DNA from: Maribacter sp.
GTDB lineage: Bacteria > Bacteroidota > Bacteroidia > Flavobacteriales > Flavobacteriaceae
Assembly (NCBI GenBank): GCA_029287355.1
Contig: JARFRH010000258.1
Coordinates: 1 to 54,732 of the forward strand
Direction of reading: 5' to 3'
Length of the DNA: 54,732 nucleotides
Part shown: one piece after another, positions 1,950 to 21,332 of the stretch
How positions within the stretch are numbered: position 1 is the stretch's first letter
Layout of the letters: each line of letters opens with the position of its first letter
Translations under genes and position numbers: made by a program
Notes under the pieces: generated by a model
Databases searched by the model: none
The model's input: only the letters and a program-made list of their open reading frames with translations
Told to the model about the DNA's origin: nothing

Positions 1950-1953
1950 AGGA

Positions 1954-3195: not shown

Positions 3196-3210
3196 TAAAA
3201 ACCCAAATAA

Positions 3211-5983: not shown

Positions 5984-6967
5984 ATGAGAGTAGTACAATT
6001 CATAACGCTAGAAGGTAAAAATGCCGTCGCTCAGGTATCCGGTGAGATGCTACAATTGATTTCGAATTTTTCCTCTTTCTATGAAATGGCCCAAAGGGCT
6101 ATTTCAGAAGGGATTACTTTAGAAAAACTCATCGAGACCAACTTATCTTCAGAGCAGGTTGACTATGTTGGGGTAATCAAATCAAATCGCTTGCTATCGC
6201 CAATTCACCACCCTGACCCTGCGCACTTCTGGATTACGGGAACAGGACTAACGCATTCCGGTTCAGCCGCAACGAGAGATGCGATGCATAAAGCCTTGGA
6301 AAAGGAAGATCTTTCAGATTCCATGAAAATATTCAAGATGGGCTTAGCCGGAGGTAAACCAAAGGATGGCGAACGGGGGGTTCAGCCCGAGTGGTTCTAC
6401 AAAGGCAATGGAACCATTGTAGTTCCACCAAATGGCGAAATCGACCTCCCAGATTATGCACTCGATGGAGGTGAAGAACCAGAAATTGCCGGGCTCTACC
6501 TTATAGGTGCCGATCGAAATCCATATCGTATCGGCTACGCTTTGGGCAACGAGTACAGCGACCATGTCATGGAACGCATCAATTATCTTTATTTGGCACA
6601 TTCAAAACTACGTCAATGTTCCTTTGGCCCAGAACTTCTTTTGGGGGATTTACCAAAGACCGTGAAAGGAAATGTATCCGTCATTAGAAATCAAGAGACT
6701 ATTTGGAGCAAAGAATTCTTAAGTGGCGAGAATCATATGATCCATAGTTTCGATAATTTGGAATACCATCATTTCAAATACGACCTCTTTCGCTCACCTG
6801 GTGATTTGCACTGCCATTTTTTTGGCACGGCAACATTCAGTTTTTCAGATGGCATTAAAGTTAAAGAGGGTGATGAATTTCAAATCGAATCGAACACCTT
6901 CGGAAAATCCTTGCGCAATACCCTCAAAAAAAGAGAGAACAAATCATTGAAGATTAAAAAACTATAA
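5984..6967 (+). CDS. AraD1/GguC-family protein (FAH-like fold)
   Basis: This 327-residue cytoplasmic protein has the signature TGLTHSGSAATRDAMH of the GguC/AraD1 family. The family belongs to the fumarylacetoacetate-hydrolase-like superfamily. Members act on 2-keto-3-deoxy or related sugar acids as hydrolases or dehydratases, using a divalent metal held by acidic residues; EEPEIAG and the GDE segment near the C-terminus fit this. There is no signal peptide. The next gene, a Rieske lipoprotein, begins 5 bp downstream, so the two are probably co-transcribed. The role fits the rest of the window: it could process keto-deoxy acids brought in by the TRAP transporter. The exact reaction is not predictable. 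Confidence 0.8.
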   Translation: MRVVQFITLEGKNAVAQVSGEMLQLISNFSSFYEMAQRAISEGITLEKLIETNLSSEQVDYVGVIKSNRLLSPIHHPDPAHFWITGTGLTHSGSAATRDAMHKALEKEDLSDSMKIFKMGLAGGKPKDGERGVQPEWFYKGNGTIVVPPNGEIDLPDYALDGGEEPEIAGLYLIGADRNPYRIGYALGNEYSDHVMERINYLYLAHSKLRQCSFGPELLLGDLPKTVKGNVSVIRNQETIWSKEFLSGENHMIHSFDNLEYHHFKYDLFRSPGDLHCHFFGTATFSFSDGIKVKEGDEFQIESNTFGKSLRNTLKKRENKSLKIKKL

Positions 6968-6972
6968 TCATT

Positions 6973-7410
6973 TTGAAGAGAAACGAATTTCTAAAATCCA
7001 TAGGAACAGGAGCAGCTTTTATCCTAACTACTGGCTGTCTAGGGGGTTGTTCCAAGGGTGAAGACATTCCTTTTATTGCTCCAAATGGCAGTAATCTACC
7101 ATCGAATACTGTTCTTTTTACCATCGATCTGAGCTCTGAAGAAGCCGATAATTTGTTGAAAGAAGGAGGTTTTATTATTCAGGATGATATCGTAATCGCC
7201 AAGAGTCTAAGTGGCGCATATGTAGCTGCAACTGTAATTTGCACGCATGAATCGAGAAAAGAAGTTACTTTTCAAAAAAACGAATTTCTTTGCACAGCTC
7301 ATGGTGCCCGTTTTGACCAATCAGGCAATGGTTTGAACGACTTTGGAAAGAAAGGTCTAAAAATCTACCAAACACTTTTGAATGAAAATGTATTAACAAT
7401 TCTCACTTGA
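6973..7410 (+). CDS. Rieske [2Fe-2S] lipoprotein
   Basis: This small protein of 145 residues starts at a TTG 5 bp after the previous stop. Its N-terminus is a signal with a lipobox-like cysteine (C22 or C26, in TTGCLGGCS). The Rieske cluster motif is C88-T-H90 and C105-T-A-H108-G, so both Cys/His pairs are present. It should be an exported, membrane-anchored electron carrier. Its coupling to the AraD1-like gene is odd because that enzyme class needs no electron transfer. It may instead serve periplasmic oxidoreductases such as the Tat-exported Gfo/Idh protein next door. Its 3' end overlaps the convergent esterase gene by 8 bp. Confidence 0.85.
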   Translation: MKRNEFLKSIGTGAAFILTTGCLGGCSKGEDIPFIAPNGSNLPSNTVLFTIDLSSEEADNLLKEGGFIIQDDIVIAKSLSGAYVAATVICTHESRKEVTFQKNEFLCTAHGARFDQSGNGLNDFGKKGLKIYQTLLNENVLTILT

Positions 7411-8227
7411 TTCGTTTTGCCCTATTTTCTACAAAGTTCAATAATAGGGGTATAGCAGGGTACACCATATTATGCCCATACCCATCCAACTCCATTAATT
7501 CCACATCAGGATGTTCTACAACCTTCATCATACGATAGAAATAGGCCACTTCTTCGTAGCGTCCTAAAAGTTCCTTTTCACGATTACCGGTTATCAATAA
7601 CATGGGTGGTGCATCATTGCGTACATGAAATAGCGGTGCATACTTATCAATTATAGGTTGTGTTCCTTTAATTCCTCTTTCTTTTCGAATGGTAAAATGC
7701 GTGATCGTATGACCACTAAAGGGTATCATACCTGCGATGTCATTAGCATCGATTTCATGCTTTTCCAGATAGCCTTTATCCAACCCCACCATATTTGCCA
7801 GATAGCCTCCGGCAGAATGGCCGGTAACGAAAATCTTTTTGGGGTCTCCATTGTATTTCTCAATGTTTTTGAATGTCCATGCCACAGCGGCAGCGGCATC
7901 TTCAATGTAGACTGGATGTTTCACCTTTGGGTGCATGCGATAATTTACAGTCACCACTACCACCCCTTTTTCTAACAAGCCTTCTGGTAGGTGTTTCTCT
8001 CCAAATTCCAATCCTCCGCCGTGAAACCAGACGATTGTCGAAACATTCGTTGTGTCTTTAGGGAAGTACACATCCAATTTGCAACGTTCTGCGATATAAT
8101 CATCTGCATTCTGGTTGTCTATATCGTAATACGGTATATTCTCTTTGAGTTCATAGGAAATTTTTTGGGCCGATATTAAAGCAGTACTCAAAAGAAGAAT
8201 GCAGATAAAAACTTTACTTTTTGTCAT
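7403..8227 (-). CDS. Secreted alpha/beta-hydrolase (esterase/lipase family)
   Basis: This 274-residue protein has a Sec signal peptide ending near SAQ (residue 21). The oxyanion motif HGGG is at 69-72, the nucleophile elbow GHSAGG is at 136-141 (S138), and a C-terminal GYGHNM block contains the likely catalytic H252. This is the BD-FAE/carboxylesterase pattern. It would hydrolyse an ester, for example acetyl groups on sugars, in the periplasm. It is the last gene of the long minus-strand cluster, 10 bp after the DUF1801 gene. A deacetylating esterase fits the theme of that cluster, but no substrate can be read from the sequence. Confidence 0.82.
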   Translation of the reverse strand: MTKSKVFICILLLSTALISAQKISYELKENIPYYDIDNQNADDYIAERCKLDVYFPKDTTNVSTIVWFHGGGLEFGEKHLPEGLLEKGVVVVTVNYRMHPKVKHPVYIEDAAAAVAWTFKNIEKYNGDPKKIFVTGHSAGGYLANMVGLDKGYLEKHEIDANDIAGMIPFSGHTITHFTIRKERGIKGTQPIIDKYAPLFHVRNDAPPMLLITGNREKELLGRYEEVAYFYRMMKVVEHPDVELMELDGYGHNMVYPAIPLLLNFVENRAKRIK

Positions 8228-8237
8228 TTAGCGTTCC

Positions 8238-8600
8238 TTATAATTCAATTATTCCTTTTCTGTATACATCCAAGGCTTGATTCATGATCAAATCAATATC
8301 GCCAATTGGTAAATCTTTGTTCGGGTCAACCCTGAATATTTTCATTCGTGTGCGGCTTCCTGTTTCCAGTTTCGGATGTTTCAAGTACTTTCCCTCCACC
8401 ATCAAAAAATAAGGATCAGCACTTTTCTTGTCCATCCAAAGGTAGCAGAACATCTTCCCTTTAAAGCAAAAACAAGGCATTCCATATTTTGTGGTCTCGG
8501 AGATATGTGAATCATAGCCTAGAACAATAGCTCGCATAGCCATCAAGCAACTCCGCTGCGGCTCTTGTTTGTTGATATAGAAATTATCTTCCGCAACCAT
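8238..8600 (-). CDS. DUF1801-like small protein
   Basis: This 120-residue cytoplasmic protein has no signal or membrane segment. The SETTKYGMPCFCFKGKMFCYL segment and the overall size match the DUF1801/YdhG-like fold. Members are poorly characterised; a Bacillus homologue was linked to iron delivery. It lies 9 bp after DctM and 10 bp before the esterase, so it is probably transcribed with them. It may be a passenger gene, and no function in sugar-acid use can be inferred. Confidence 0.6.
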   Translation of the reverse strand: MVAEDNFYINKQEPQRSCLMAMRAIVLGYDSHISETTKYGMPCFCFKGKMFCYLWMDKKSADPYFLMVEGKYLKHPKLETGSRTRMKIFRVDPNKDLPIGDIDLIMNQALDVYRKGIIEL

Positions 8601-8609
8601 TTTTTGTAG

Positions 8610-9884
8610 CTAATCAGCAAATAAACCAGGAAGCCATAAAGAAATTTCAGGAATTAAGGTCACCAAAATCAGGACAACCAAGCTCACCAGTAAAAATGGA
8701 AAGCCCGCTTTACTGACTTTTCCAATTGAAACCTTCCCGATACTTGATGCTACAAACAAACAAACACCGACTGGAGGGGTCGTCAAACCAATAATCAGAT
8801 TCAATACGGCTATTACAGCAAAATGTATAGGGTCAACATCCACAGCCAATGCCACCTTCAATAAAATAGGAAACAAAATGAGCAATGCGGCGATCGTTTC
8901 CATAAAAGTACCCACAGCAATTAGCAATAGGTTAATTAGCAAAAGCACTACATATTTATTGGAACTAAATCCTAATATTTCACTTGAAATGGTCTGAGGA
9001 ATATGTTCCGTAATTAAAATGTAACCGAATAAGTTCGCGAATCCCACTAAGACCATTAAGGACGCAGAGGTCTTCATTGAATCGAGAATGACGACCTGAA
9101 CATTTTTAAAATTCAGTTTCTTATAAACGAACCGTCCGATAATCAAGGCATACAAAACGGCCACGATCGACGCTTCCGTTGGTGTGAAAATACCACCAAT
9201 AATTCCGAAGAGAATGATAAAGGTCATCAACAAGGACCAAAACGTATCAACAAAACCTCGGGCTACTTGTCCAAAACTACTTTTAGAGTGCTTGGGATAG
9301 TTCTTTTTTCTAGCAATGAGATAGGCTACAACCATCAAACCAACGCCCAATAGAAGTCCGGGAATCGCTCCTGCCAAAAATAATTTTCCAACCGAAAGTC
9401 CGCTCAAGGTTGCCGCTATAATCATGGGCACACTAGGTGGAATGATTGGCCCTACCGTAGAGGAGGCGGCGGTCACGGCACATGAAAAATCAGCATCGTA
9501 TCCTTCCTTTTTCATCGCTGGAATCATCACCGACCCCATACTTGCGGTATCGGAAATTGCGGTACCTGAAATACCGGCAAACAACATTGAGGCCCCAATA
9601 TTTACCAAGGAAAGCCCACCCCTGATATGGCCCATTAAATGATTGCAAAACGAGATAATCTTCTCTGTCAACCCGCCTTGGTTCATTAGATTTCCTGCTA
9701 TGATAAACCCGGGAATACTTAAGAGCACGAAAACATCAATACCCGAATACATTTTCATTGGCATCAGAATCAACGGAATATCAGCTGAAATCAAATAAAC
9801 CAAACAGGCTAGCCCCAAAGCAAAAGCTATGGGGTAGCGAAGCACAAGGGCAACCACGAATACAATAACCAAAATCCAAATCAT
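8610..9884 (-). CDS. TRAP transporter large membrane subunit, DctM type
   Basis: This 424-residue protein is hydrophobic throughout, with about twelve transmembrane segments, and begins MIWILVIVFVVALVLRYP as usual for DctM subunits. Family segments SGTAISDTASMGSVMIPAM and GPIIPPSVPMI are present. With DctQ and DctP it forms a tripartite Na+-driven importer for organic acids. The start overlaps the end of dctQ by 4 bp (ATGA), which indicates translational coupling. In this cluster the load is probably a sugar acid or keto acid made by the exported enzymes encoded upstream. Assignment is firm; the substrate is inferred only. Confidence 0.95.
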   Translation of the reverse strand: MIWILVIVFVVALVLRYPIAFALGLACLVYLISADIPLILMPMKMYSGIDVFVLLSIPGFIIAGNLMNQGGLTEKIISFCNHLMGHIRGGLSLVNIGASMLFAGISGTAISDTASMGSVMIPAMKKEGYDADFSCAVTAASSTVGPIIPPSVPMIIAATLSGLSVGKLFLAGAIPGLLLGVGLMVVAYLIARKKNYPKHSKSSFGQVARGFVDTFWSLLMTFIILFGIIGGIFTPTEASIVAVLYALIIGRFVYKKLNFKNVQVVILDSMKTSASLMVLVGFANLFGYILITEHIPQTISSEILGFSSNKYVVLLLINLLLIAVGTFMETIAALLILFPILLKVALAVDVDPIHFAVIAVLNLIIGLTTPPVGVCLFVASSIGKVSIGKVSKAGFPFLLVSLVVLILVTLIPEISLWLPGLFAD

Positions 9885-10357
9885 GTGCTCTTCCTTTTAA
9901 AAGCTTTTACAATGTTCTGCCAGGAATAATAACAAAGTGTAGCACCAATGATAAACATGCTACAAAATGCCACGCCCATGTTAAAACCCATACTAGGTGA
10001 TTTTTCGATCATGCCCAAGCTTATAAAACGTATCGAATAGAAAGCGAACACAGCGAATAATATGAATATAACTACTGGAATAGACTTATCCAGGAGCATT
10101 TTCAATTTTGGATTGAACATATTGTAGAATGCGTCCAAATGCACGTAATAGTTTGACTTTAAAGCAAGACCCGAGGCAAAGGAAATGGCATAAATAAAGA
10201 GAATACGCGACGCCTCCTCCGTCCATGAAGGGGTGTCGAACCATGAGAAGCGACAGACAATCTGAAGTAATACCATGGCAATCAAGCCCCATGTGCTCAA
10301 TAAGGTTCCGATTTTAAGAATTCTACCTATTCCTTTCCGCATGCGCCTTTTGTTCAT
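9881..10357 (-). CDS. TRAP transporter small membrane subunit, DctQ type
   Basis: This 158-residue protein has four transmembrane segments. The WTEEASRILFIYAISFASGLALK segment is the hallmark of DctQ proteins. It pairs with the DctM subunit and the solute-binding protein of the same operon. From the first ATG it overlaps the end of dctP by 35 bp; a second ATG (10342) would give a 20-bp overlap and is equally plausible. It overlaps dctM by 4 bp. The substrate is not indicated. Confidence 0.92.
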   Translation of the reverse strand: MNKRRMRKGIGRILKIGTLLSTWGLIAMVLLQIVCRFSWFDTPSWTEEASRILFIYAISFASGLALKSNYYVHLDAFYNMFNPKLKMLLDKSIPVVIFILFAVFAFYSIRFISLGMIEKSPSMGFNMGVAFCSMFIIGATLCYYSWQNIVKAFKRKST

Positions 10358-11348
10358 TTTTCAATTCATGATAGATTTTTTGCATTTCTGGAGATAAGCT
10401 ATCATAGATGGCCTTTTCGCATTTCTTAGCGAAGGCAACATTATCAACTTCGATTAATTCCATGCCTTTATCCATCAACTCCTGTTGTACGTGTTTTTCA
10501 TTTTCAAGAAATAAATCATGCTCATACTTCTGCATTTCTTTACCTGCTTTCAACACTAACTCTTGAAGATCTGGGGGCAATTTCTGAAACTGTTTTTCTC
10601 CAATTACTGCATAAACCCAACTAATTACATGACCCGTTAGATTGACGTACTTCTGAACTTCGGCAAAACCTCCATTATTGATCATGGCAAACGGATTTTC
10701 CTGCCCTTGAATAGTGCCTTGCTGTAAGGAGGTGAAAACCTCAGAAAATGCCATAGGAGTGGGTTTTGCACCTAGTGCGCTCCAAGTAGTAACAAAGGAG
10801 GGAACATTGGGTACACGCAGAATCAATCCATTTAAATCATCAGGGTGTCTAATCGGTCTGTTTGAAGTCAAATGTCTAGGCCCACGTTCAAAATGACACA
10901 ATGCGCGCACGCCAGCTTTCTCGATCATCTCAGTTTCCATCAATTTACCAACACGACCATTGATATAGAGATTCATATCGGTAGAGTCCTTCATTAAATA
11001 TGGTAATTCACAAAAAGTGGCCGCTTCGAACCAATTCGTCAGTGTCGACCCAGTTGTAGTAATATCAATGACCTCAGCTTGAATCAATCGAATGGCTTCA
11101 ATTTCTTTTGCCAATTGTTCCGAAGGGTAGAGCTGAACCTCGATACGTCCATTAGACCGTTCTTCCAAAATTTCTTTAAAATAAGCGAAAGCCTTGTACC
11201 ATGTATGGTCTTCTTTGACAATGATTGCGGTACGAAATAGGAACTCTGGTTTGGCTTCTTTGGATTTGCAGTTAAGTATAATTAAAAACACCGAAAGAAG
11301 TAGCAACGATTTTGCGGTATATTTTGCCCATTGCCCCTTCCCATCCAT
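10323..11348 (-). CDS. TRAP solute-binding lipoprotein, DctP type
   Basis: This protein of about 341 residues has a lipoprotein signal ending FLIILNC, so it is probably anchored in the membrane facing the periplasm. The block with LRVPNVPSFVTTW and SLQQGTIQGQENPF is typical of DctP proteins, whose conserved Arg (in LRVP) binds the carboxylate of the ligand. The ATG at 11348 is preferred: it follows the RidA stop by 4 bp and gives a normal signal peptide, while a longer frame would need a TTG inside the upstream gene. Its place directly after exported sugar-acid enzymes suggests it captures their carboxylate product. Confidence 0.93.
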   Translation of the reverse strand: MDGKGQWAKYTAKSLLLLSVFLIILNCKSKEAKPEFLFRTAIIVKEDHTWYKAFAYFKEILEERSNGRIEVQLYPSEQLAKEIEAIRLIQAEVIDITTTGSTLTNWFEAATFCELPYLMKDSTDMNLYINGRVGKLMETEMIEKAGVRALCHFERGPRHLTSNRPIRHPDDLNGLILRVPNVPSFVTTWSALGAKPTPMAFSEVFTSLQQGTIQGQENPFAMINNGGFAEVQKYVNLTGHVISWVYAVIGEKQFQKLPPDLQELVLKAGKEMQKYEHDLFLENEKHVQQELMDKGMELIEVDNVAFAKKCEKAIYDSLSPEMQKIYHELKNEQKAHAERNR

Positions 11349-11352
11349 AGAA

Positions 11353-11928
11353 TTAATCTTGAACTTCAACAATCATTTCAATCTCGACCGCAATGTTGCT
11401 AGGTAAGGAACCCATTCCAACGGCCGCCCGCGCATGTTTCCCTTTATCACCAAAAACGGCGACCATCAAGTCGGAATACCCATTAATGACCTTTGGCTGA
11501 TCTGTAAAATCAGATGCAGCATTGACCATGCCTTTTACCTTTACGATGCGTTTGACTTTGTTCAAATTACCCAACTCTGCCTTCAAAACCGATAATTGGT
11601 TGATTCCGGTAATTCGTGCCGCCTCATAACCTTGTTCAATAGTAAGATCCGTTCCCACTTTACCCGATATATATTCACCGTCAGCCTTTTTAGGACCTTT
11701 GCCGGCTAAAAAAATCAGGTTTCCGGTTCGTACGGCATTCACATAATTGGCAACCGGGGCCGAGGGCGTGTTCAATTCAATACCCAATTCTTTTAATTTG
11801 GCTTCTGGGTTGTAACTTGGGTCAATTGCTTCTTGAACCTCAGTTACCGCTTCCTCTTTTACTTCTTTGACTTCGTTACACGAAAAAGCTAGCAATAGCG
11901 TAAGACAGAGGTAAATTCTTTTCATCAT
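11353..11928 (-). CDS. RidA-family lipoprotein
   Basis: This 191-residue protein has a lipoprotein signal (LAFSC, C17), an acidic linker, and a RidA/YjgF domain (about residues 45-191). The conserved arginine is kept in HARAAVGMGSLPSN, and VEIEMIVEV matches the C-terminal strand. Cytoplasmic RidA hydrolyses reactive enamine/imine intermediates of PLP enzymes to keto acids and ammonia. An exported RidA is unusual. It stands directly after an exported PLP enzyme and two genes after a Tat-exported RidA, so it may clear enamines released in the periplasm. The domain call is firm; the partner is inferred from gene order. Confidence 0.87.
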   Translation of the reverse strand: MMKRIYLCLTLLLAFSCNEVKEVKEEAVTEVQEAIDPSYNPEAKLKELGIELNTPSAPVANYVNAVRTGNLIFLAGKGPKKADGEYISGKVGTDLTIEQGYEAARITGINQLSVLKAELGNLNKVKRIVKVKGMVNAASDFTDQPKVINGYSDLMVAVFGDKGKHARAAVGMGSLPSNIAVEIEMIVEVQD

Positions 11929-11951
11929 AATTGAGTTTGATTATTAACATA

Positions 11952-13166
11952 TTAAACGTTTTCCAGCACTTCCTTCACACGTTGGGCAACAATTCTTTCT
12001 TGGCCAGGTTCCATCATCCAGGTCGTAATACCGACCTGTTCTTTATTTCCAACCGTTTCAATAGACGGATGGCCATCTCGCAATTTTTTTCGCATGGCAT
12101 CCGTGGATATGCCCACTACTTTTTCATCCCATCGAATATACAAACTAGGAACATGGTTCGCATGCTGTGGCACATGAATTTCTGTTTCGACCCCCTTTAC
12201 GGAAAGCGCGCTATCGCTAATTAATTTGATTTGACTTTCCCAAAGTGCCCATTCCTTGTCGTGGTCTCTTGAAAGATAAAGCTCCAAAGCTACCATCATT
12301 CCTAAAACTTCCTCTTTATTTACTTTCATCCCTCGAGCAATCGTCGTTCCTCGCGGTGGCGTATGTAATCTTGCAGCCTCAATATACTTTCTTTTTCCCA
12401 ATAACAACCCAGCACTTTGTGGCCCTCGAATTCCTTTACCCCCCGAAAAACAAACCAAATCGAAACCCAACTTGGTAAATTTAAAAAGGTTTTCAACCGG
12501 AGGCACATCAGCGGCACAGTCGATAAAAGTTGGAACATTGTGTTTTTTGCCCAAGGCAATAAATTCTTCCCATTTGATTTCGCCATTCTCGGTATTGGCA
12601 TTTAAAAACCAGAGCATTGCCGTTTTATCATTTATGGCCTTTTCCAACTCTTTTGCGGTCTCAATCTCCACAATTTTAGCGCCCGTATTGATCAGTGCAT
12701 GGGTATACCCAATGGAATGTCCCTTTTGAACAATGACCTCGTCTTTTAATCCTGTGGTATCAGGAAGTTGAGCTACTTTTTCCTCGTCCATTCCACACAT
12801 AATACCCGCCAGACCTATGGTCATGGCTCCAAAAGCGCCCGAAGTTACCGTGGCATATTCGCATTCCAACAGCTCGGCAATGCGCTCCCCAACTTTGTCA
12901 TGAAGTTCATCTAAATTGACGTACTCGGTTGCACCGTAGCTTATAGCATCGGTCACTTCTTTGTGCATCAGCGACCCCGTCATTGCGGTATAGGTTCCTG
13001 CCGCATTAATAAAAGTACGTAGCCCCAATTCTTTGAAAAAGTCACGTGCCACCGGCTTTAGTACCACTTCTTCCGCAACTTTTGCAGTCAACAAGCTAGG
13101 TCCTAACATTCCACCGACAAGTGGAAGTGTTGATACCATTTTTAATGCTTTTCTTCTAGTGCTCAT
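11952..13166 (-). CDS. Tat-exported SelA/DgaE-like PLP-dependent enzyme
   Basis: This 404-residue protein starts at the ATG at 13166 with a twin-arginine signal (STRRKALKMV). The fold is that of SelA-like class V PLP enzymes. The PLP lysine is K244 in SGGKGIRGPQ, the PLP-binding aspartate D217 is in IDCAAD, and INAAGTYT (53-60) is the family opening block. Relatives include D-glucosaminate-6-phosphate ammonia-lyase (DgaE); true selenocysteine synthase is unlikely because the protein is exported and no selenium genes are nearby. It is flanked by two RidA genes and linked to an amidohydrolase, as in Dga-type loci. I infer a periplasmic ammonia-lyase on an amino-sugar acid or a similar amino acid. 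Confidence 0.85.
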   Translation of the reverse strand: MSTRRKALKMVSTLPLVGGMLGPSLLTAKVAEEVVLKPVARDFFKELGLRTFINAAGTYTAMTGSLMHKEVTDAISYGATEYVNLDELHDKVGERIAELLECEYATVTSGAFGAMTIGLAGIMCGMDEEKVAQLPDTTGLKDEVIVQKGHSIGYTHALINTGAKIVEIETAKELEKAINDKTAMLWFLNANTENGEIKWEEFIALGKKHNVPTFIDCAADVPPVENLFKFTKLGFDLVCFSGGKGIRGPQSAGLLLGKRKYIEAARLHTPPRGTTIARGMKVNKEEVLGMMVALELYLSRDHDKEWALWESQIKLISDSALSVKGVETEIHVPQHANHVPSLYIRWDEKVVGISTDAMRKKLRDGHPSIETVGNKEQVGITTWMMEPGQERIVAQRVKEVLENV

Positions 13167-13235
13167 AATAGTATGTTTTATTGTTATTCCCTTGAATTCC
13201 CACAACTATCGGGAGGGAATCTGTTTACCGCTATT

Positions 13236-13712
13236 TTAATCTACTGCAGCAATACAGTCCATTTCGACCAATGAGTTCCCAGGGACTCCCCCATAGGTGG
13301 CCACTGTAGTTCTTACTGGCGGATTCTTTCCGAAACGCCCGCGAAAGACTTCATTCATTCCCTTGTAATCAGCAAGATCTGCTAGGTAGACATTTACCTT
13401 TAAGACCTGCTCCATTGAAGAACCATTTGCTTCCAAGCCCTTTTGCAATTCTTGCAGTACAATTTCAGTATGGGCCTTGATTTCGTAGGGTTCTACGTGT
13501 GCGCCCTTTCCTGCTATGTAAAGTGTATTTCCATGTTTTACAGCACCCGAAAATAAGGGAATGTCTTGATCCGTTACAATGTCGCCGACTACTTCCTTTT
13601 TAGGATTGAATTCCTTCTTGCCCATTGCATTTGCAGTTCCTATACCAAATAAAGCCGCTAGACCCATTCCTATTTTTTTGAAGGATGCCCTTCTTGTTGT
13701 TTTGCTTTCCAT
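13236..13712 (-). CDS. Tat-exported RidA-family protein
   Basis: This 158-residue protein carries a Tat-like signal (TTRRASFKK, then a hydrophobic stretch ending TANA) and a RidA/YjgF domain. The conserved arginine is in PPVRTTVATYGGVPGN, and the last strand is VEMDCIAAVD. It is clearly different in sequence and signal type from the RidA lipoprotein encoded two genes later. Both flank the exported PLP enzyme, which suggests processing of an enamine product in the periplasm. It lies 20 bp after the RraA-like gene. The family assignment is strong. Confidence 0.87.
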   Translation of the reverse strand: MESKTTRRASFKKIGMGLAALFGIGTANAMGKKEFNPKKEVVGDIVTDQDIPLFSGAVKHGNTLYIAGKGAHVEPYEIKAHTEIVLQELQKGLEANGSSMEQVLKVNVYLADLADYKGMNEVFRGRFGKNPPVRTTVATYGGVPGNSLVEMDCIAAVD

Positions 13713-13732
13713 ATTTCTGTTTTTTTATTATT

Positions 13733-14650
13733 TTACCACATTCGTTTTTTAAGGAGTTCTTGAATTTGCGCTTTCGGAACCGGCAGTTCATCAATATGAT
13801 CATTCAGCCATTTCGAAAAATCTTTTTCGATTTCGTCCGACCATTTAGCATCAATTTGCCCCGGAGTATATTTCCCGTCTTTCAATCGCGTAATACCAAA
13901 TAGGTCTCGCAAGCGAACTACCTCAGAGGTGACTACAACTTTTTCGGCCAAATGCGCGGGAATGAACATCACACCTTCTTTCTTACCCAATATGATATCC
14001 CCGGGAAGCACAGTTGCAGCCCCTATTCGAATGGGCGAATTTATACTCAACAGCATCACTTCGGTCAGGAATGAAGGATGCCATTCCCTAACAAAAGCGT
14101 TAAATCCCGTTATTTTTGACAGACCCTCTTGATCTCTGCTGGAAGCATTAAAAACCACACCCGTTTTTGATTTGGCATAAATGGCATTTCCTAAATTATC
14201 ACCGATCAAGGTACCGTCTACAATTTTTCCAAAGCCATCCGCAACATATACATCCCCAAATTGAAGCATGTCAATGGGCCATGAATTGGTATTTCCGATT
14301 TGACCATCGGCCCTACCTTTCTTTTTGATTTGGTCGGAAACATCGGGTCGGTTTGGCATGTATTGAACCGTTAATGCCCTCCCCACTACAGTAACATCAT
14401 CATGCAATGGTTCCCAACCCCCTTCAAATTGATTGTGATACCCTTCATTGCGCAGCACGCCCCAAGCTTCCTCAATCGCAACATCTTTCATACGCTCCAA
14501 AATAGCATCGGCTACTTTGGGTCTACCATCATCAAAGCGTTCTCCTTCCCATTGTGGGGTCAAGAATATAATTTGTTCTTTGGATGTAGTTTGGGCGCTC
14601 ATAAAATTGCAAACCAACAGCATCAACACTATCCCCTTTATTAATCGCAT
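13733..14650 (-). CDS. Exported RraA-like/HMG-CHA aldolase-family protein
   Basis: This 305-residue protein has a Sec signal peptide ending MSAQ (about residue 20), followed by an RraA-like domain. GDNLGNAIYAKSKTGVVFN and the ASSRDQ block match the GD/GE and (D)xxRD segments that bind metal and substrate in 4-hydroxy-4-methyl-2-oxoglutarate aldolases. These enzymes cleave or decarboxylate keto acids with a divalent metal; RraA itself is a non-enzymatic regulator. Export argues for the enzymatic role. In the cluster it could cleave the keto-deoxy acid formed by the PLP enzyme. A lone RraA-like protein without an aldolase function is the alternative. Confidence 0.8.
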   Translation of the reverse strand: MRLIKGIVLMLLVCNFMSAQTTSKEQIIFLTPQWEGERFDDGRPKVADAILERMKDVAIEEAWGVLRNEGYHNQFEGGWEPLHDDVTVVGRALTVQYMPNRPDVSDQIKKKGRADGQIGNTNSWPIDMLQFGDVYVADGFGKIVDGTLIGDNLGNAIYAKSKTGVVFNASSRDQEGLSKITGFNAFVREWHPSFLTEVMLLSINSPIRIGAATVLPGDIILGKKEGVMFIPAHLAEKVVVTSEVVRLRDLFGITRLKDGKYTPGQIDAKWSDEIEKDFSKWLNDHIDELPVPKAQIQELLKKRMW

Positions 14651-14677
14651 ATGTTCTCCTATTTATATTTTAAAACG

Positions 14678-15928
14678 CTATTTGTCCCAAAGTGGCGCTG
14701 AAAGACCATTTAGATCATACACTACTTTACCATCACGAATGGTGAGTTCGCATTCCAATTTTTTGGTTCCAGTCATCTTTTTGCCCTTGGTATCAATAAA
14801 ACCAAAATTCCCTTCTCTTAGGTTTAAGATGGCAATATCCGCTACTGCACCTACAGATAGTTGTCCCAAGTTTTCCCTTTTGATAACTTTTGCGGAATTC
14901 CAAGTTGTCGCGGCGATTATTTCGGAAATGGGCATATTCAAATTTAAAAATTTAGACATTACATTCACGATGTCTTTCATACCCCCATTCATGCTCCCCG
15001 TATGATAATCCGTACTTATGGTATTGGGTTTGAAGCCTTGTTGCATTGCCGGTACGACTTGTTCGAAAAGAAAGCTGCCACCGCCATGACCTACATCGAA
15101 GATGATTCCCCTTTTCTGGGCGGCCCATGCAAAATCGGCTACCTTTCCCTGTTCATTTACAATTGGTATTCGACCTTTTACATGGGCATAGGCATGTGTG
15201 AAAATATCTCCCGGACGAAGTTTTTCCATGAATAAGGTTTCCAAGGAAAGTTCAGGTTGGCTTCCTCCAAAATCAATCATGATAGGTATGTCAGCCAGTT
15301 TTCCTGCTTCAACAGCTCTTTCGGTCGGGGTCCAATCAAAACCACTATAATGAGCCAATTTGACCCCAACAATGTGCTCCGAATATTGTTTAGCCACCAT
15401 TGCGGTAAGTTTGGGGTTCATATCGTCAATGTTCTGCTCAATAGCACCGCCTTTCATACCAGAGCCTACTATATTCAAAAATGATAACACTCTGGTTTTG
15501 GACCGATCGATCGTTTGTTCCTTAAAAACCCTAAAATTTCTCCAACCAGCCCCTCCAACATCTACAAGAGTGGTCACACCACTCCTGAAAGAAAACCCAT
15601 CAGGGGGCAAGGCCGTAAAACTGTTACTCAAATATGCATCGGGCTCTGTGCCAAAAAAGTTGTGACTATGGATATCTATTAAGCCGGGAGTAACAAACAA
15701 ACCTCTCGCGTCTATCACCGTTTTAGCCCGACTGGCTGAAATAGTATTCTCGACCAGCGCAACTTTTCCTTCATTAACCGCGACATCCATTACTGCATCA
15801 ATCGCATTCTTGGAGTCTATCACATGGCCATTCTTAATAAGGATATCGAACTCTTGCGCGTTCAAAACAATGGAAAAAAGGAATGAAATCAATGCCAAGC
15901 AAACGGTATATCTATATTTACGTTCCAT
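14678..15928 (-). CDS. Exported amidohydrolase/deacetylase-family metallohydrolase
   Basis: This 416-residue protein starts at the ATG at 15928 with a Sec signal ending LNAQ; a longer frame would begin at a TTG. Amidohydrolase features are the opening IKNGHVIDSKN, metal-binding TPGLIDIHSHNF, FTHAYAH and STDYHTG (likely metal aspartate). It resembles the Atu3266/EF0837 group of deacetylases, which occur next to SelA/DgaE-like PLP genes in other bacteria. The likely job is removal of an acyl group from an N- or O-acylated acid before the PLP enzyme acts. Export of this family is uncommon. The family call is firm; the substrate is inferred. Confidence 0.85.
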   Translation of the reverse strand: MERKYRYTVCLALISFLFSIVLNAQEFDILIKNGHVIDSKNAIDAVMDVAVNEGKVALVENTISASRAKTVIDARGLFVTPGLIDIHSHNFFGTEPDAYLSNSFTALPPDGFSFRSGVTTLVDVGGAGWRNFRVFKEQTIDRSKTRVLSFLNIVGSGMKGGAIEQNIDDMNPKLTAMVAKQYSEHIVGVKLAHYSGFDWTPTERAVEAGKLADIPIMIDFGGSQPELSLETLFMEKLRPGDIFTHAYAHVKGRIPIVNEQGKVADFAWAAQKRGIIFDVGHGGGSFLFEQVVPAMQQGFKPNTISTDYHTGSMNGGMKDIVNVMSKFLNLNMPISEIIAATTWNSAKVIKRENLGQLSVGAVADIAILNLREGNFGFIDTKGKKMTGTKKLECELTIRDGKVVYDLNGLSAPLWDK

Positions 15929-15964
15929 ATCTTTATCTTTATATTCTGGGATAGAGTTCAATTA

Positions 15965-17716
15965 TTACTCACTTGTTTTCGGTAATTGAGCATTATGTTG
16001 TTCAAGAATGATTCTTTGATTCGCCACATGATGACTTTCGATTTCATCAGCCTTGTTTCCGAAATTTGAACGTATAAAGGTCAGTACATCGGCGATTTCA
16101 GTATCGCTTAAAAAACTATGTTGGGGCATCACTCCATTATAGGTCTCACCGTTGATCTGCATTTCACCCTCCATACCTTCCAAAATAACTTTGATCAATC
16201 GTGTTTTATCACCACTTACCCAATCAGTACTGGTCAAAGGCGGGAATCTTCCGGTTGCACCTCCCCCATCTTTTTGGTGACAGTTGGCACAGTAGGTATT
16301 GTAAACGACCTCGCCGGGTGAATTAGCGTCCATGGCAAGATTATCCTTGAGTTTATCAGGTGTTCGCACATGTGTGACCGATTTTCTCTTCTCCATTTCC
16401 GCGAGTTGTTCTTGCCCGAAATTCATCCTATCGCCATTGAAGGTGATTTTCCAAATTCTACCTTTAACAGATTCTGATAGATACATGGCCCCATTTTTAT
16501 CAAAGGCAATTCCCATAGGTCTTAAATTTGCATCTTTCACACTTTCAATTGGATCAACACCGGCAAAACCATCTGCAAAAACTTCCCAATCACCACTTGG
16601 GCTTCCATCTTTAAAAGGAACGAAGGCAACAATATAACCCGACTGTGGATATGGAGCACGATTGGTAGAACCATGAAATGCGATAAAGGCACCATGTTTG
16701 TATCGTTCCGGAAATTGATCTCCCTCGTAAAACACCAAGTCATTCGGGGCCCAATGTCCAGGAAAACCAATGAGTGGGTCTTCAAATTCCGCACATCTCC
16801 CAACGATGTCACCATCGCCACCATATTCGGGAGCCAATACTTTTTTGCCTTTGATTTGATCGTAGTAACAATAAGGCCATCCGAAGTCCGACCCTTCGGT
16901 TACGCGAATAAACTCTTCCGAAGGTAAAAGAGCGCTTTCCCAAGGTGTAAATCTATCTGGAAAAAGTCGCAATAAATCATCGCGACCATGCATTGCGATA
17001 TATAAATTTTCATCCACTGGATTCCAATCCATAGCCACAACAGACCGAATACCTGTTGCATACTTATAGCCGTCTTTTTGGGTCTGCCCCAATTTGTTAG
17101 CGTCAAAACGCCAAACACCACCGTGATGTTCTAATTGCGGACAAGGATCCATGCCTGGGGCGCCGGGAGTCCTTTTAGGATCTTGACAAGCATTCGACGG
17201 AGCTCCAAAGGGAACATATAAATTTCCCTTGTTATCAAAAGCTATCGGCTTACCGATATGCTCATGTTTGCCATGCTCATGGTCATCGGTTACGACAATT
17301 TCCATTTCGCCATCCGGTATCATACTTCCTGGCTTTAGCTTATATCGGTAGACAACCAGTTCTGAGCTGAAGTATATGTAACCATTATAAATTCGCATAG
17401 CCGTTGCATAGCTCCATTTTTGTTGTGATCTATAGGCTCCGAATTTTTCTGCAACATCTGCTTTACCATCACCATCAACGTCCTTAAGCGCTATAATTCC
17501 AGCCTTATCATGCGACTCTCTCAACTTCCCGTAAAGAACCCCATCATCGGACACCGCCATGTGGCGCACCCGCTCTTTTACACTATCGATCATGATTACC
17601 GCATTGAAATTATCGGGAAGTAAAAGACCTCCATTCGGAAGTTCATTTGAGCACCCAAAAAGCAGCAGGATAACAAAAAATATCGGTAACCTTCTTAGAT
17701 AGGTTTTGGCCATCAT
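15965..17716 (-). CDS. PQQ-type sugar dehydrogenase lipoprotein fused to cytochrome c
   Basis: This 583-residue protein has a lipoprotein signal (LLLFGC). A six-bladed propeller of the soluble glucose/sorbosone dehydrogenase type follows (about 30-440), with IALKDVDGDGKAD and MDWNPVDENLYIAMHGRDDL. A C-terminal cytochrome c has CANCH and a probable Met ligand in GVMPQHSF. Such proteins oxidise sugars or aldehydes to acids in the periplasm and pass electrons to the fused haem; whether PQQ is truly bound cannot be shown here. It is the first gene of the eleven-gene cluster, with a candidate operator about 155 bp upstream. It could supply the sugar acid used by the following enzymes. An ATG 3 bp later is also possible. 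Confidence 0.88.
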   Translation of the reverse strand: MMAKTYLRRLPIFFVILLLFGCSNELPNGGLLLPDNFNAVIMIDSVKERVRHMAVSDDGVLYGKLRESHDKAGIIALKDVDGDGKADVAEKFGAYRSQQKWSYATAMRIYNGYIYFSSELVVYRYKLKPGSMIPDGEMEIVVTDDHEHGKHEHIGKPIAFDNKGNLYVPFGAPSNACQDPKRTPGAPGMDPCPQLEHHGGVWRFDANKLGQTQKDGYKYATGIRSVVAMDWNPVDENLYIAMHGRDDLLRLFPDRFTPWESALLPSEEFIRVTEGSDFGWPYCYYDQIKGKKVLAPEYGGDGDIVGRCAEFEDPLIGFPGHWAPNDLVFYEGDQFPERYKHGAFIAFHGSTNRAPYPQSGYIVAFVPFKDGSPSGDWEVFADGFAGVDPIESVKDANLRPMGIAFDKNGAMYLSESVKGRIWKITFNGDRMNFGQEQLAEMEKRKSVTHVRTPDKLKDNLAMDANSPGEVVYNTYCANCHQKDGGGATGRFPPLTSTDWVSGDKTRLIKVILEGMEGEMQINGETYNGVMPQHSFLSDTEIADVLTFIRSNFGNKADEIESHHVANQRIILEQHNAQLPKTSE

Positions 17717-17938: not shown

Positions 17939-18667
17939 CTATTCAAAGACAAGGGTACCGAAATATTCAGGACGGTGAAAGTCTGGCTTTTCAGTGCCGA
18001 CTGAATTCCAACTTAAGTAGTGAGGCTCCGAAGTTTTGTCGCCACATTTATAAAAATTGGCTTTGGTTTTTAACCCTTTTAATTGAATTCCCTCATCGGC
18101 GACCAAAATTGAAGCCGGAATTACCAGGGTCATTTCCCAAGAGTGCCCACCCGTTTTTTCGATAAAGGGTTCATGACCCAAAGAAGAGCTTACGGAAATT
18201 TCACTTTTTAGCAGCTCTTCATTTACAAATTCGCGTTTGCCTCTCCCAGGGCCATAAGCCAAATGGGGCATGCCAATACAACTAAACTCAAAATTGTAGT
18301 AGTTGCCATCAGCGCGAGGGTCAAAAAAGAACTCTACACAGCTATCACCGGAAACGCTTCCATTTACCGTATCGACTTGCGCTAGAATATTTTTTTCAAC
18401 CACGTAATACTTTAACCAGATTTGGTTGTTTGCATGTGCTATTCTAAAACTCACTTCAGGCCGATATGAAAAAGCATCCCAATTCATGATATCGATAAAC
18501 TCAAGCTGTGCATGTTCTTCAAGCAATTCAGATACCTCAAGCAGCGAAACGTTTTTTTCCGCGATGATTTCTTTTACCTTCAATTCTTTCGGTGTTTCAT
18601 TTTGGGTAATACAACTTGCAAAAATTGAACAGAGAAAGAATAGTAAAAAACTCTTTTTTTTCAACAT
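17939..18667 (-). CDS. CBM9-like carbohydrate-binding lipoprotein
   Basis: This 242-residue protein has a lipoprotein signal ending IFASC. The middle shows the pattern of carbohydrate-binding family 9-like domains: IWLKYYVVEKN, DSCVEFFFDPRADGNYYNFEFSCIG and a C-terminal SWNSVGTEKPDFHRPEYFG. Proteins of this type occur as lone domains near sugar-degradation genes in Bacteroidota and are thought to bind glycans or act as redox-domain relatives (DOMON-like). It is transcribed in the same direction as the dehydrogenase cluster but separated by 222 bp that contain the operator, so it probably has its own transcript. The ligand is unknown. Confidence 0.8.
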   Translation of the reverse strand: MLKKKSFLLFFLCSIFASCITQNETPKELKVKEIIAEKNVSLLEVSELLEEHAQLEFIDIMNWDAFSYRPEVSFRIAHANNQIWLKYYVVEKNILAQVDTVNGSVSGDSCVEFFFDPRADGNYYNFEFSCIGMPHLAYGPGRGKREFVNEELLKSEISVSSSLGHEPFIEKTGGHSWEMTLVIPASILVADEGIQLKGLKTKANFYKCGDKTSEPHYLSWNSVGTEKPDFHRPEYFGTLVFE

Positions 18668-18797: not shown

Positions 18798-21332
18798 ATG
18801 GCAGTGAGATTATTTTTTATATTAAGTGCAACCATACTTCTGAGCTGCGGTCCAACTATGCCTGATGAGGTAGAAATTGCCTATGAAAACCTTCCTGAAA
18901 GAATAGACTTTAATTTTCATGTGCGCCCTATTCTTTCTGATCGCTGTTTCGCTTGTCACGGGCCAGATGAAAAGGCCAGAAAAGCAAATCTCCGATTAGA
19001 TATCGAATCAGATGCTTTTTCAAAACTTGAGGGCAAAACACTATTTCCCTTGGTAGCCGGAAAGCCAAATCGCAGTGAGGTCATCAAACGTATTCTTCAC
19101 GAAGACCCTAAAATGGTCATGCCCACTCCGAAATCAAAGATGGGCTTAACGAATTCCGAAAAAGCCATTTTGGTTAAATGGGTGAAGCAGGGCGCGGAAT
19201 GGAAGGATCACTGGGCTTTTGAAACGCCCAAAAAATCGAAACTCCCCAAAACATCAAATATAAAATGGGCAAAAAACGAGATTGACTATTTCGTGATGAA
19301 AAAATTAGATCTTCTGGGGTTAACCCCATCCCCAGAAGCCGCAAAAGAGACTTTAATAAGACGACTGTCTTTTGACCTCACGGGATTACCTCCTACTCCA
19401 GAAGAAGTTGCCGATTTTAAAAATGATCCCTCTGAAAAGGCCTACGAATTCTTGGTAGACCGTTTGCTTGCTTCAAAAAGTTACGGTGAACGATGGACAT
19501 GGGAGTGGCTTGATGTGGCTCGATATTCAGACACTAACGGATTTCAAGGTGATTTTACCCGTGATATGTGGCCTTGGCGCGATTGGGTCATTGAAGCTTT
19601 TAATTCCAATATGCCTTATGACGAATTTAGCATGAAGCAACTTGCTGGCGATTTGCTTCCGGAAGCTACCTCCGAAGATATTCTGGCAACGGCATTCAAC
19701 AGAAATCATACCTATAACACTGAGGGCGGAACCATACCCGAAGAAACCAGAGTGGCCAATGTCTTTGACAGAACCGAAACTACGGGTACAGTTTGGTTAG
19801 GGCTGACCTTGAATTGTGTGCGTTGCCACGATCATAAGTTCGATAATATCTCACAAAAAGAGTATTATCAACTTTTTGATTATTTCAATCAAACTTCAGA
19901 GGAAGGTGGAGGCTGGGGAGGAAAAATAAAACCTTTGCTAACGCTGGCCCCAGAGAAAGAACAAAAAGAAATCGAAAAGCTAGAAACCTATATTTCATCA
20001 TTACAATCCGAGGTAGAACAGCTGGAATTGGAAAAATTTCCGAGGGCAAAGGGATTGCCTCCATCGGAATCGGAAGTGGCGAAAAGCACGAATGGATTAG
20101 ACCCGCGTATACTTCTTAAACCTCCAAAACTAAGGGGGACAGGCGGGTTCAACCAATTGACCAAATACTTCCCGCCTACCGATTCCTATGGAAAAACGAT
20201 TAAGGAGTTACATAGTACTTTGTCCACGTACAATGAGGTCACGTCTAAACACATTCAAGTTCTTGTTATGGATGACTTGGACGAACCCAGGCTTACGTTT
20301 GTATTGGACAGAGGTGGTTATAGCAACCCCATTCTAACGGACACCATTCGACCTGATGTGCCAAAATTACTTCCTCCTATGAGAAAAACTGCGGAGAACA
20401 ATCGCCTTGCACTAGCGAAATGGTTGTTCGACGAAAAACAGCCTTTGACAGCCCGAGTTACCGTAAATCGATACTGGCAGGCTTTCTTTGGAAATGGCAT
20501 CGTAAAAACCACTGAAGATTTCGGGGTGCAGGGGGCACTTCCTACACATCCTGAACTATTGGATTGGCTAGCCACCGATTTTCAAGAAAACGGTTGGAAT
20601 TTAAAACGGTTGTTCAAACAAATCGTCATGAGTGCCACCTACCGACAGACGTCAAAAGTATCTGAAGCGCTTTTAGAAATCGATCCTGAAAATAGCTATC
20701 TGGCCAGAGCCACACGAATGCGTTTGCCCTCATGGATGCTTCGTGATCAAGCACTTTTTGTTAGCCGCATGTTGAAAGATTCGATTGGAGGAGTACCTGT
20801 GAAGCCCTATCAACCTGAAGGCATTTGGGACGAAGCTACCTTTGGCTTTGTGAAGTACAAACAAGATACAGGCGATAAGCTGTATAGGCGAAGCCTATAC
20901 ACTTTTTGGCGCCGCATTGTTGGGCCGACCTCTTTATTCGATAATGCTTCAAGGCAAGTTTGTACTGTTCGTACCCTTAAAACAAATACACCTTTACATG
21001 CCTTGACCACCTTGAACGACATTACGTTCACAGAGGCAAGTCGCGTATTGGCAGAACATATCTTAAATCATTCTATTGATGATAAAAAGCGATTGCAGTT
21101 CGGGTTTGAACTAGTTACTTCCAGAAAGCCTAGGGCTGATGAATTGGATATCCTCCTTAATAGACTTGCATCGCTCAGAAAAACCTACTCAGATGACATC
21201 ACTTCCGCGAAAGATATTACCAGTATTGGGGAATACCGAACCAATCGTGATTTGGATGTAACCGATCATGCTTCCTATGCGGTACTGAGTTCTTTACTTT
21301 TAAATTTGGATGAAACCATAACCCGGCAGTAG
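18798..21332 (+). CDS. Planctomycete-type cytochrome c protein (PSCyt1-PSCyt2-PSD1; DUF1549/DUF1553)
   Basis: This 844-residue lipoprotein (signal ending LLSC) has three parts. An N-terminal PSCyt1 domain has the haem motif CFACHGPDEKARKANLRLDI. A DUF1549 domain begins at about residue 165 with RRLSFDLTGLPPTPEE. A C-terminal DUF1553 domain has RVTVNRYWQAFFGNGIVKT and SATYRQTS. The middle includes a charged, coiled-coil-prone stretch (about 390-415). The protein is encoded with no gap before the DUF1501 gene, the usual pairing. Biochemical function is unknown; a role in periplasmic sugar or sulfated-glycan oxidation is often guessed. The family is best known from Planctomycetota, so ancient transfer is plausible. 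Confidence 0.9.
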   Translation: MAVRLFFILSATILLSCGPTMPDEVEIAYENLPERIDFNFHVRPILSDRCFACHGPDEKARKANLRLDIESDAFSKLEGKTLFPLVAGKPNRSEVIKRILHEDPKMVMPTPKSKMGLTNSEKAILVKWVKQGAEWKDHWAFETPKKSKLPKTSNIKWAKNEIDYFVMKKLDLLGLTPSPEAAKETLIRRLSFDLTGLPPTPEEVADFKNDPSEKAYEFLVDRLLASKSYGERWTWEWLDVARYSDTNGFQGDFTRDMWPWRDWVIEAFNSNMPYDEFSMKQLAGDLLPEATSEDILATAFNRNHTYNTEGGTIPEETRVANVFDRTETTGTVWLGLTLNCVRCHDHKFDNISQKEYYQLFDYFNQTSEEGGGWGGKIKPLLTLAPEKEQKEIEKLETYISSLQSEVEQLELEKFPRAKGLPPSESEVAKSTNGLDPRILLKPPKLRGTGGFNQLTKYFPPTDSYGKTIKELHSTLSTYNEVTSKHIQVLVMDDLDEPRLTFVLDRGGYSNPILTDTIRPDVPKLLPPMRKTAENNRLALAKWLFDEKQPLTARVTVNRYWQAFFGNGIVKTTEDFGVQGALPTHPELLDWLATDFQENGWNLKRLFKQIVMSATYRQTSKVSEALLEIDPENSYLARATRMRLPSWMLRDQALFVSRMLKDSIGGVPVKPYQPEGIWDEATFGFVKYKQDTGDKLYRRSLYTFWRRIVGPTSLFDNASRQVCTVRTLKTNTPLHALTTLNDITFTEASRVLAEHILNHSIDDKKRLQFGFELVTSRKPRADELDILLNRLASLRKTYSDDITSAKDITSIGEYRTNRDLDVTDHASYAVLSSLLLNLDETITRQ

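Follow-up and report, generated by a model that had tools for sequence, protein, structure and literature searches.

The analysed window is a 54,732-nucleotide stretch of DNA from Maribacter sp. (contig JARFRH010000258.1). On its minus strand, from position 17716 to 11353, lie six consecutive enzyme genes in the order dehydrogenase-cytochrome, amidohydrolase, RraA-like protein, RidA, pyridoxal 5'-phosphate (PLP) enzyme of the DgaE family and a second Rid protein, and the genes of a tripartite ATP-independent periplasmic (TRAP) transporter come next. Families were assigned by NCBIfam and Pfam profile scans of the translated open reading frames (ORFs) of the window, and both the ORF list and the scans bear out this order, which had been given in an earlier note made from the sequence alone. 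With mechanically called ORF starts, the intergenic gaps of the six genes are 3, 27, 20, 30 and 23 bases, which makes a single operon likely. The PLP enzyme (SelA-like) and amidohydrolase ORFs begin with TTG codons that are probably placed too early, and the real preceding gaps would then be some tens of bases longer; the true start of the PLP enzyme is probably Met14, as in its relatives. The second Rid gene (RidB) and DctP overlap by 20 bases, DctP and DctQ by 35 and DctQ and DctM by 4, and all three TRAP proteins score above their family cut-offs. A DUF1801 gene and then an alpha/beta hydrolase gene follow after 9 and 10 bases, while a CBM9_2 gene is located 222 bases upstream of the dehydrogenase gene. 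Coordinates are provided in Table 1.

Table 1. Genes of the cassette and associated genes, with their positions in the window and supporting profile matches.
Feature	Position	Strand	Profile match and remarks
CBM9_2 protein, lipoprotein-type leader (by eye)	17939..18667	-	PF16011, 226 bits; first cassette gene
Lipoprotein, GSDH-type (quinoprotein-like) propeller plus cytochrome c	15965..17716	-	PF07995, 42.6 bits; PF00034, 39.8 bits
Exported amidohydrolase/deacetylase, PRK09237/EF_0837 type	14678..15961	-	NF006689, 444.2 bits (cut-off 371)
Exported RraA-like protein (aldolase/dehydratase family)	13733..14650	-	PF03737, 61 bits
RidA, Tat-type leader	13236..13712	-	PF01042, 67.4 bits
DgaE/SelA-family PLP enzyme, Tat-type leader	11952..13205	-	TIGR01437, 202.8 bits (cut-off 385.3)
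Second Rid protein (RidB), lipoprotein-type leader	11353..11928	-	PF14588, 70.6 bits
TRAP solute-binding protein DctP	10323..11372	-	PF03480, 247.5 bits
TRAP protein DctQ	9881..10357	-	PF04290, 69.6 bits
TRAP protein DctM	8610..9884	-	TIGR00786, 421.7 bits (cut-off 268)
DUF1801 protein	8238..8600	-	PF08818, 36.3 bits; loosely associated, present in few of 80 named loci
Alpha/beta hydrolase (BD-FAE)	7403..8227	-	PF20434, 92.6 bits; cassette neighbour in some relatives
GguC/AraD1 family protein	5984..6967	+	NF040903, 506 bits (cut-off 340)

A search with the PLP enzyme as single query gave matches in 11 of 59 genomes (7 of them strong), an alignment-based search gave matches with E up to 1e-20 in 8 of 395 genomes of the phylum, and the TIGR01437 model gave matches at the same limit in 24 of the 299 genomes sampled within the window's family, its own genome being included in all three counts; none of the 299 family genomes reached the TIGR01437 cut-off. 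Named genomes were scanned as well, with 492 relatives, of which the best 80 (mostly Flavobacteriaceae by title) serve as the named loci, and 49 of these, with at least 8 kb on each side, are here called well flanked; counts refer to the stretches covered. The closest named relative is Maribacter algarum (L019), with 93% identity in the PLP enzyme. Among the well-flanked loci, the amidohydrolase and at least one Rid gene were found in all 49 (RidA in 37, RidB in 46), the dehydrogenase-cytochrome in 47, CBM9 in 39, RraA in 32, a carrier of the SBF family in 29, TRAP genes in 8, either carrier in 35 and a lactonase in 11. Many of the 80 named loci show the same gene order, more than chance would give, together with the export signals described below, as the earlier note had proposed to look for in other Bacteroidota. 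The block that it had delimited at 7403-17716 is real, but its limits leave out the CBM9_2 gene, which belongs to the cassette, and take in the only partly conserved DUF1801 and hydrolase genes. RraA and the importer are optional, and the SBF carriers, PanS-like yet under the cut-off of that model (254 versus 400 bits), often substitute for TRAP. Further afield, within the same class or phylum, six genomes contributed eight stretches (L114-L120 and L122, of which L120 is incomplete; a ninth of that set, L121, belongs to the window's own family), with the amidohydrolase in 7, RidA in 7, a lactonase in 7 and the dehydrogenase in 6. Variation was also seen: L220 holds four PLP paralogues and some other loci multiple copies, and L114, L122 and L220 show long SelA-like paralogues (about 550-575 amino acids) and multi-paralogue PLP clusters, alongside copies of normal length. 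In L093 and L094, two amidohydrolase genes flank the PLP gene in a variant cassette with no Rid or RraA gene within the stretches covered. A flavobacterial-type cassette fragment in a metagenome-assembled genome titled Gammaproteobacteria (L040, JAURLY010000295.1) is likely to be binning contamination.

Export signals had been claimed for all six enzymes, and the leaders across the cassette loci agree with this under a home-made rule, which requires, ahead of the aligned domain start, a twin arginine plus hydrophobic stretch, a lipobox or a hydrophobic stretch. In the cassette rows, which contain duplicates given that some genomes were sampled twice, a twin-arginine leader precedes 127 of 128 SelA-like PLP enzymes. 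RidA is exported in 100 of 101 rows (96 twin-arginine, 4 Sec-like) and RidB in 89 of 90 (82 lipobox, 7 Sec-like). The corresponding figures are 117/121 for the amidohydrolase (the remaining 4 truncated), 76/80 for RraA (3 truncated, 1 without leader) and 99/105 for the dehydrogenase-cytochrome (5 truncated, 1 without leader). Among comparison homologues, leaders were found in 2 of 20 SelA-like proteins, 0 of 14 amidohydrolases and 0 of 8 RidB proteins. The type of leader differs from gene to gene and is kept for each. In addition, residues 1-52 of the PLP enzyme have no confident structure in its model (mean predicted local distance difference test score, pLDDT, 76.5), as expected for a leader.

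Judged from its sequence, the PLP enzyme is a clear relative of the DgaE family but not DgaE proper, because it lies below both curated cut-offs (171.5 bits are also recorded in the NCBIfam scan) and has lost the phosphate-site arginines and the catalytic histidine. Its earlier designation as DgaE-like is therefore right for the fold and for the PLP lysine, and too strong in so far as it implies those residues. The best matches of the predicted fold are Cap15 (PDB 8t7j; Z 35.3, 2.5 Å over 332 residues) and DgaE (PDB 7lc0, with 7lce a second entry; Z 34.0, 2.9 Å over 332 residues), nearly tied, and threonine aldolases, SelA and NifS, all of which we take to be of fold type I. By sequence profile, DgaE (E 2.1e-54) is closer than Cap15 (E 3.1e-41). 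The PLP lysine, Lys257, is invariant across 18 sequences and present in 111 of 111 distinct sequences of the exported group; its DgaE counterpart, Lys-217 in PMC9529869, is residue 213 by chain counting, while the histidine and arginine numbers agree. Eleven of 13 over-cut-off DgaE matches were used for comparison. All 11 have the PLP lysine and also the His162-His163 pair, which occurs in none of 127 exported-group rows; in the His163 column, where the alignment is doubtful, histidine was found in 1 of the 111 distinct sequences. Likewise, the columns of Arg301, Arg332 and Arg346, arginine in 11/11 DgaE loci, hold it in 1, 0 and 0 of the 111. According to the accessible text of PMC9529869, His163 is the proton donor to C3, its H163A mutant is active but releases the enamine, and the three arginines surround the phosphate of a manually docked substrate. 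The loss of the arginines thus fits a substrate without phosphate, and that of His163 fits release of the enamine, as in the mutant.

In a quick tree of 93 rows (63 from the exported group, in which 16 of the 80 named loci are sampled, 11 over-cut-off DgaE, 9 intermediate and 10 SelA-like outgroup, the last taken from 14 further genomes with weak matches), the 63 exported-group enzymes stand on one side of a branch, away from all the others, with a support of 95 in the Shimodaira-Hasegawa-like approximate likelihood ratio test (SH-aLRT), a result for which the tree tool warns of long branches meeting. DgaE, which is cytoplasmic and acts on a phosphorylated substrate, has an amidohydrolase homologue alongside in 11/11 loci, as in the cassette, and no Rid gene was found in its 11 stretches (about 16-20 kb) with hidden Markov models (HMMs) built from cassette Rid proteins. 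The nine intermediate loci, cytoplasmic as well, have His163 in 8, Arg301 and Arg332 in 9, cysteine at the Arg346 position and a Rid gene in 8; the sole one with threonine at His163 (L202, an 11.9 kb stretch) is also the one without a Rid gene.

With respect to the partner enzymes, the GSDH domain of the dehydrogenase exceeds its Pfam cut-off of 25 bits, and its orthologues keep the heme CxxCH residues in 102/105, His153 in 95/105 and Arg224 in 96/105; the latter two presumably correspond to functional residues of the soluble glucose dehydrogenase (sGDH), in which an asparagine would contact pyrroloquinoline quinone (PQQ). The amidohydrolase passes its curated cut-off and keeps what we take to be the metal ligands: His98, His100, Lys201, His256 and Asp318 in 114-117 of 121, and His292 in 103, with tyrosine there in 12. 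In the Rid proteins, Arg134 of RidA (101/101) and Arg167 of RidB (90/90) align with the RidA functional arginine, whose role we assume to be the same. No lactonase gene is present in the window's cluster, and a match exists elsewhere in the same genome. Three of nine scanned lactonase sequences belong to PF08450, and an HMM made from these nine matched 20 of the 80 named loci and 7 of the 8 class- or phylum-level stretches, the latter seven having themselves supplied the HMM. At E up to 1e-20 it matched 31 of 33 cassette genomes, including the window's own, about 25 of them with E under 1e-90. Arg172-Asp173 of RraA, kept in 77/80 rows with the rest gapped, align with Arg123-Asp124 of the HMG aldolase, a pair described as essential in the HMG/CHA aldolase in the available part of PMC5065237. 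The RraA-like dehydratase/decarboxylase FlDet, active in Flavobacterium alginate use, acts on a keto sugar acid according to the available part of PMC8563752. Both are of the RraA family and use keto acids, although other ones than those considered here, and the available passages make no mention of export.

The closest precedent is the Ong pathway rather than Dga, and it is likewise cytoplasmic. It serves the use of N-acetylglucosaminate (GlcNAc1A) in Pseudoalteromonas and other Gammaproteobacteria (PMC9537276; PMC12017989, both accessible in part). In the accessible text of the former, the deacetylase OngB and the PLP deaminase OngC convert the unphosphorylated substrate to 2-keto-3-deoxygluconate (KDG), and the RidA protein OngD is essential, with a role that its authors call unknown. 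An amidohydrolase-superfamily deacetylase, a PLP deaminase, a Rid protein and an inner-membrane importer are common to both systems, and since Ong uses the same trio on N-acetylglucosaminate, the chemistry proposed here for the cassette would be sound. The parts differ as far as those sources describe them. OngB is a D-aminoacylase-type protein of subtype V (Cys/His/His), whereas the cassette amidohydrolase is of the PRK09237 type and aligns with D-aminoacylase chains only in residues 35-101 (E 8e-7). OngC is of fold type III, in contrast to the SelA/DgaE fold. C1 oxidation is made by a lytic polysaccharide monooxygenase (LPMO) in Ong, and OngB, OngC and OngD are cytoplasmic, whereas the cassette enzymes carry export signals and import would come after deamination. 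The cassette thus appears to be an exported version, with non-homologous parts, of an already known type of pathway, and no description of such a version was found in a literature search to which most subscription journals were out of reach.

Given this set of families, we consider that the cassette has about an even chance of being a nutrient-uptake system which dismantles an N-acylated 2-amino sugar outside the inner membrane. The lipoprotein dehydrogenase, possibly with PQQ, would oxidise the N-acyl amino sugar at C1 to a lactone and pass electrons to its own cytochrome c. An exported SMP-30-type lactonase, encoded in the cassette of some relatives and elsewhere in the window's genome, would open this ring to give the N-acyl-aldonate, which has the form of an N-acyl D-amino acid and from which the amidohydrolase would remove the acyl group. 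The PLP enzyme would then eliminate the C3 hydroxyl and release an enamine, and the two Rid proteins would convert the enamine or imine to the 2-keto-3-deoxy acid and ammonia. Finally, the TRAP or PanS-like carrier would import the product, unless RraA cleaves it first. This reading draws on the kept gene order and leaders, the tree branch, the residue losses, the lactonase and carriers, the SusD/TonB and NagA/NagB-like neighbours and the Ong analogy. The earlier note had traced the same route from N-acyl amino sugar through aldonate, deacylation and deamination to uptake; the chemistry has its precedent in Ong and is consistent with the Rid proteins and a carboxylate importer, whereas the substrate is one that we infer. 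A more specific proposal, held with low confidence, is that the DgaE-derived enzyme, without its own proton donor, releases an enamine, so that the exported Rid proteins would catalyse one of the pathway's steps outside the cytoplasm, in place of the damage control for which RidA is known.

Several observations weigh against the amino-sugar proposal. Cap15 is as near as DgaE by predicted fold, and the phosphate site of DgaE comes from manual docking. RraA is absent from 17 of the 49 well-flanked loci and any carrier from 14; among 13 genomes examined for the former, a full-length RraA-like gene lies elsewhere in 12 and two fragments only in 1. Within the stretches covered, all named loci but L093 and L094 (78 of 80) have a Rid gene, and 8 of 9 intermediates keep His163 while 8 of 9 have a Rid gene, so the Rid association is not due to His163 alone; a strict rule by which Rid neighbours follow from the absence of His163 and nothing else is ruled out. 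The dehydrogenase has Ser225 where sGDH carries asparagine, and none of the 33 cassette genomes yielded pqqC, as compared with 8 of the 20 comparison genomes (7 over cut-off), which would leave either scavenged PQQ or a propeller that does not use PQQ. The lactonase family is widespread, and no AA10 LPMO was found in any of the 33 cassette genomes, which rules out an own AA10 LPMO as source of the oxidised sugar there. The block was thus called complete too readily: its cluster has no lactonase, RraA and TRAP are optional in relatives and pqqC was not found.

The same genes could serve an exported catabolism of N-acyl-D-amino acids, in which deacylation to amino acids of the D-serine or D-threonine type and dehydration by the PLP enzyme would yield an imported 2-keto acid, the dehydrogenase acting in another or a prior step. 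The family of the amidohydrolase is deacylase-like, Rid proteins are known to act on 2-aminoacrylate, RraA is dispensable, and the non-homologous OngC also accepts D-serine and D-threonine (accessible text of PMC9537276). We regard this route as unlikely, since it leaves unexplained the constancy of the dehydrogenase-cytochrome and of CBM9 in the well-flanked loci, the lactonase of the far cassettes and the SusD/TonB neighbours. Less probable is that deacylation and deamination are as proposed but applied to amino-sugar acids oxidised by other organisms, with the dehydrogenase-cytochrome merely sharing the operon and acting on something else; the missing pqqC and the modest GSDH match speak for it, but the dehydrogenase is nearly as constant as its partners, and its gene is no more than about 40 bases away from that of the amidohydrolase. 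Slightly weaker again is the case for a different substrate, in which case an (R)-2-acyloxy or N-acyl acid would be hydrolysed by the amidohydrolase as esterase or deacylase, and the PLP enzyme would be oxygen-dependent like Cap15, which is presumably an enzyme of capuramycin biosynthesis. A cog3964 enzyme reportedly acts on (R)-mandelate esters, a claim for which our literature search located no paper, and the near tie of folds fits this option, but the sequence profile favours DgaE and Rid partners suit elimination chemistry. That the signals are misread and the enzymes form a cytoplasmic, Dga-like pathway is very improbable, because, even with leaders called by a home-made rule, those of four families are nearly universal in cassettes and rare or absent in the comparison homologues of three of them, and each gene keeps a different type.

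To our knowledge, exported PLP and Rid enzymes are unusual, and the cassette, if correctly read, would yield a set of both. A sizeable set of Bacteroidota, mostly marine by name, would then remove the acyl group and the nitrogen from amino sugars prior to uptake; only the keto acid would be imported, while ammonia and an acid stayed outside, which would shift the assigned site of nitrogen release from amino-sugar polymers. The reason why a Rid protein is essential in N-acetylglucosaminate use (PMC9537276, accessible in part) would become directly testable, and release of the enamine to exported Rid proteins, if it occurs, would also suggest a role for OngD in the Ong pathway.

As regards the substrate, the nearest solved structures of DctP are 4pc9 and 4pcd from Roseobacter denitrificans (E 1.3e-77), whose ligand we take to be D-mannonate/L-galactonate, an aldonate; the fold model of DctP is poor (mean pLDDT 59). 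SusD-like genes adjoin the cassettes of L115, L119 and L122 or lie within about 2 kb of them, a TonB plug protein adjoins that of L118, and a SusC/SusD-like pair is about 5 kb from that of L047. In L116, one of the far stretches, a GH32 gene takes their place, and this is no indication of amino sugars. The context of neighbours and TRAP match seems compatible with the proposal without singling out a sugar. 2-Keto-3-deoxy-6-phosphogluconate (KDPG) aldolase was found in 33/33 cassette genomes (27 over cut-off), and is a common enzyme anyway.

Among 115 stretches (duplicates included, here and below), 7 have a GguC/AraD1 gene next to the cassette, possibly as a cytoplasmic partner. At 738-3975 of the window, NagA-like, Nramp-like and NagB-like genes recur near the cassette in 6, 5 and 7 of the 115, the NagA-like and NagB-like proteins of the window scoring under their curated cut-offs. 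Adjoining the cassette at 18798-22817 is a gene pair that we take to be DUF1549/DUF1501-like, with homologues next to the cassette in several relatives. A second locus, at 28317-54373, resembles a further system for sugar oxidation; it encodes ThuA, Gfo/Idh/MocA, xylose-isomerase-like TIM barrel and DUF7133 proteins, with cytochrome or cupredoxin domains.

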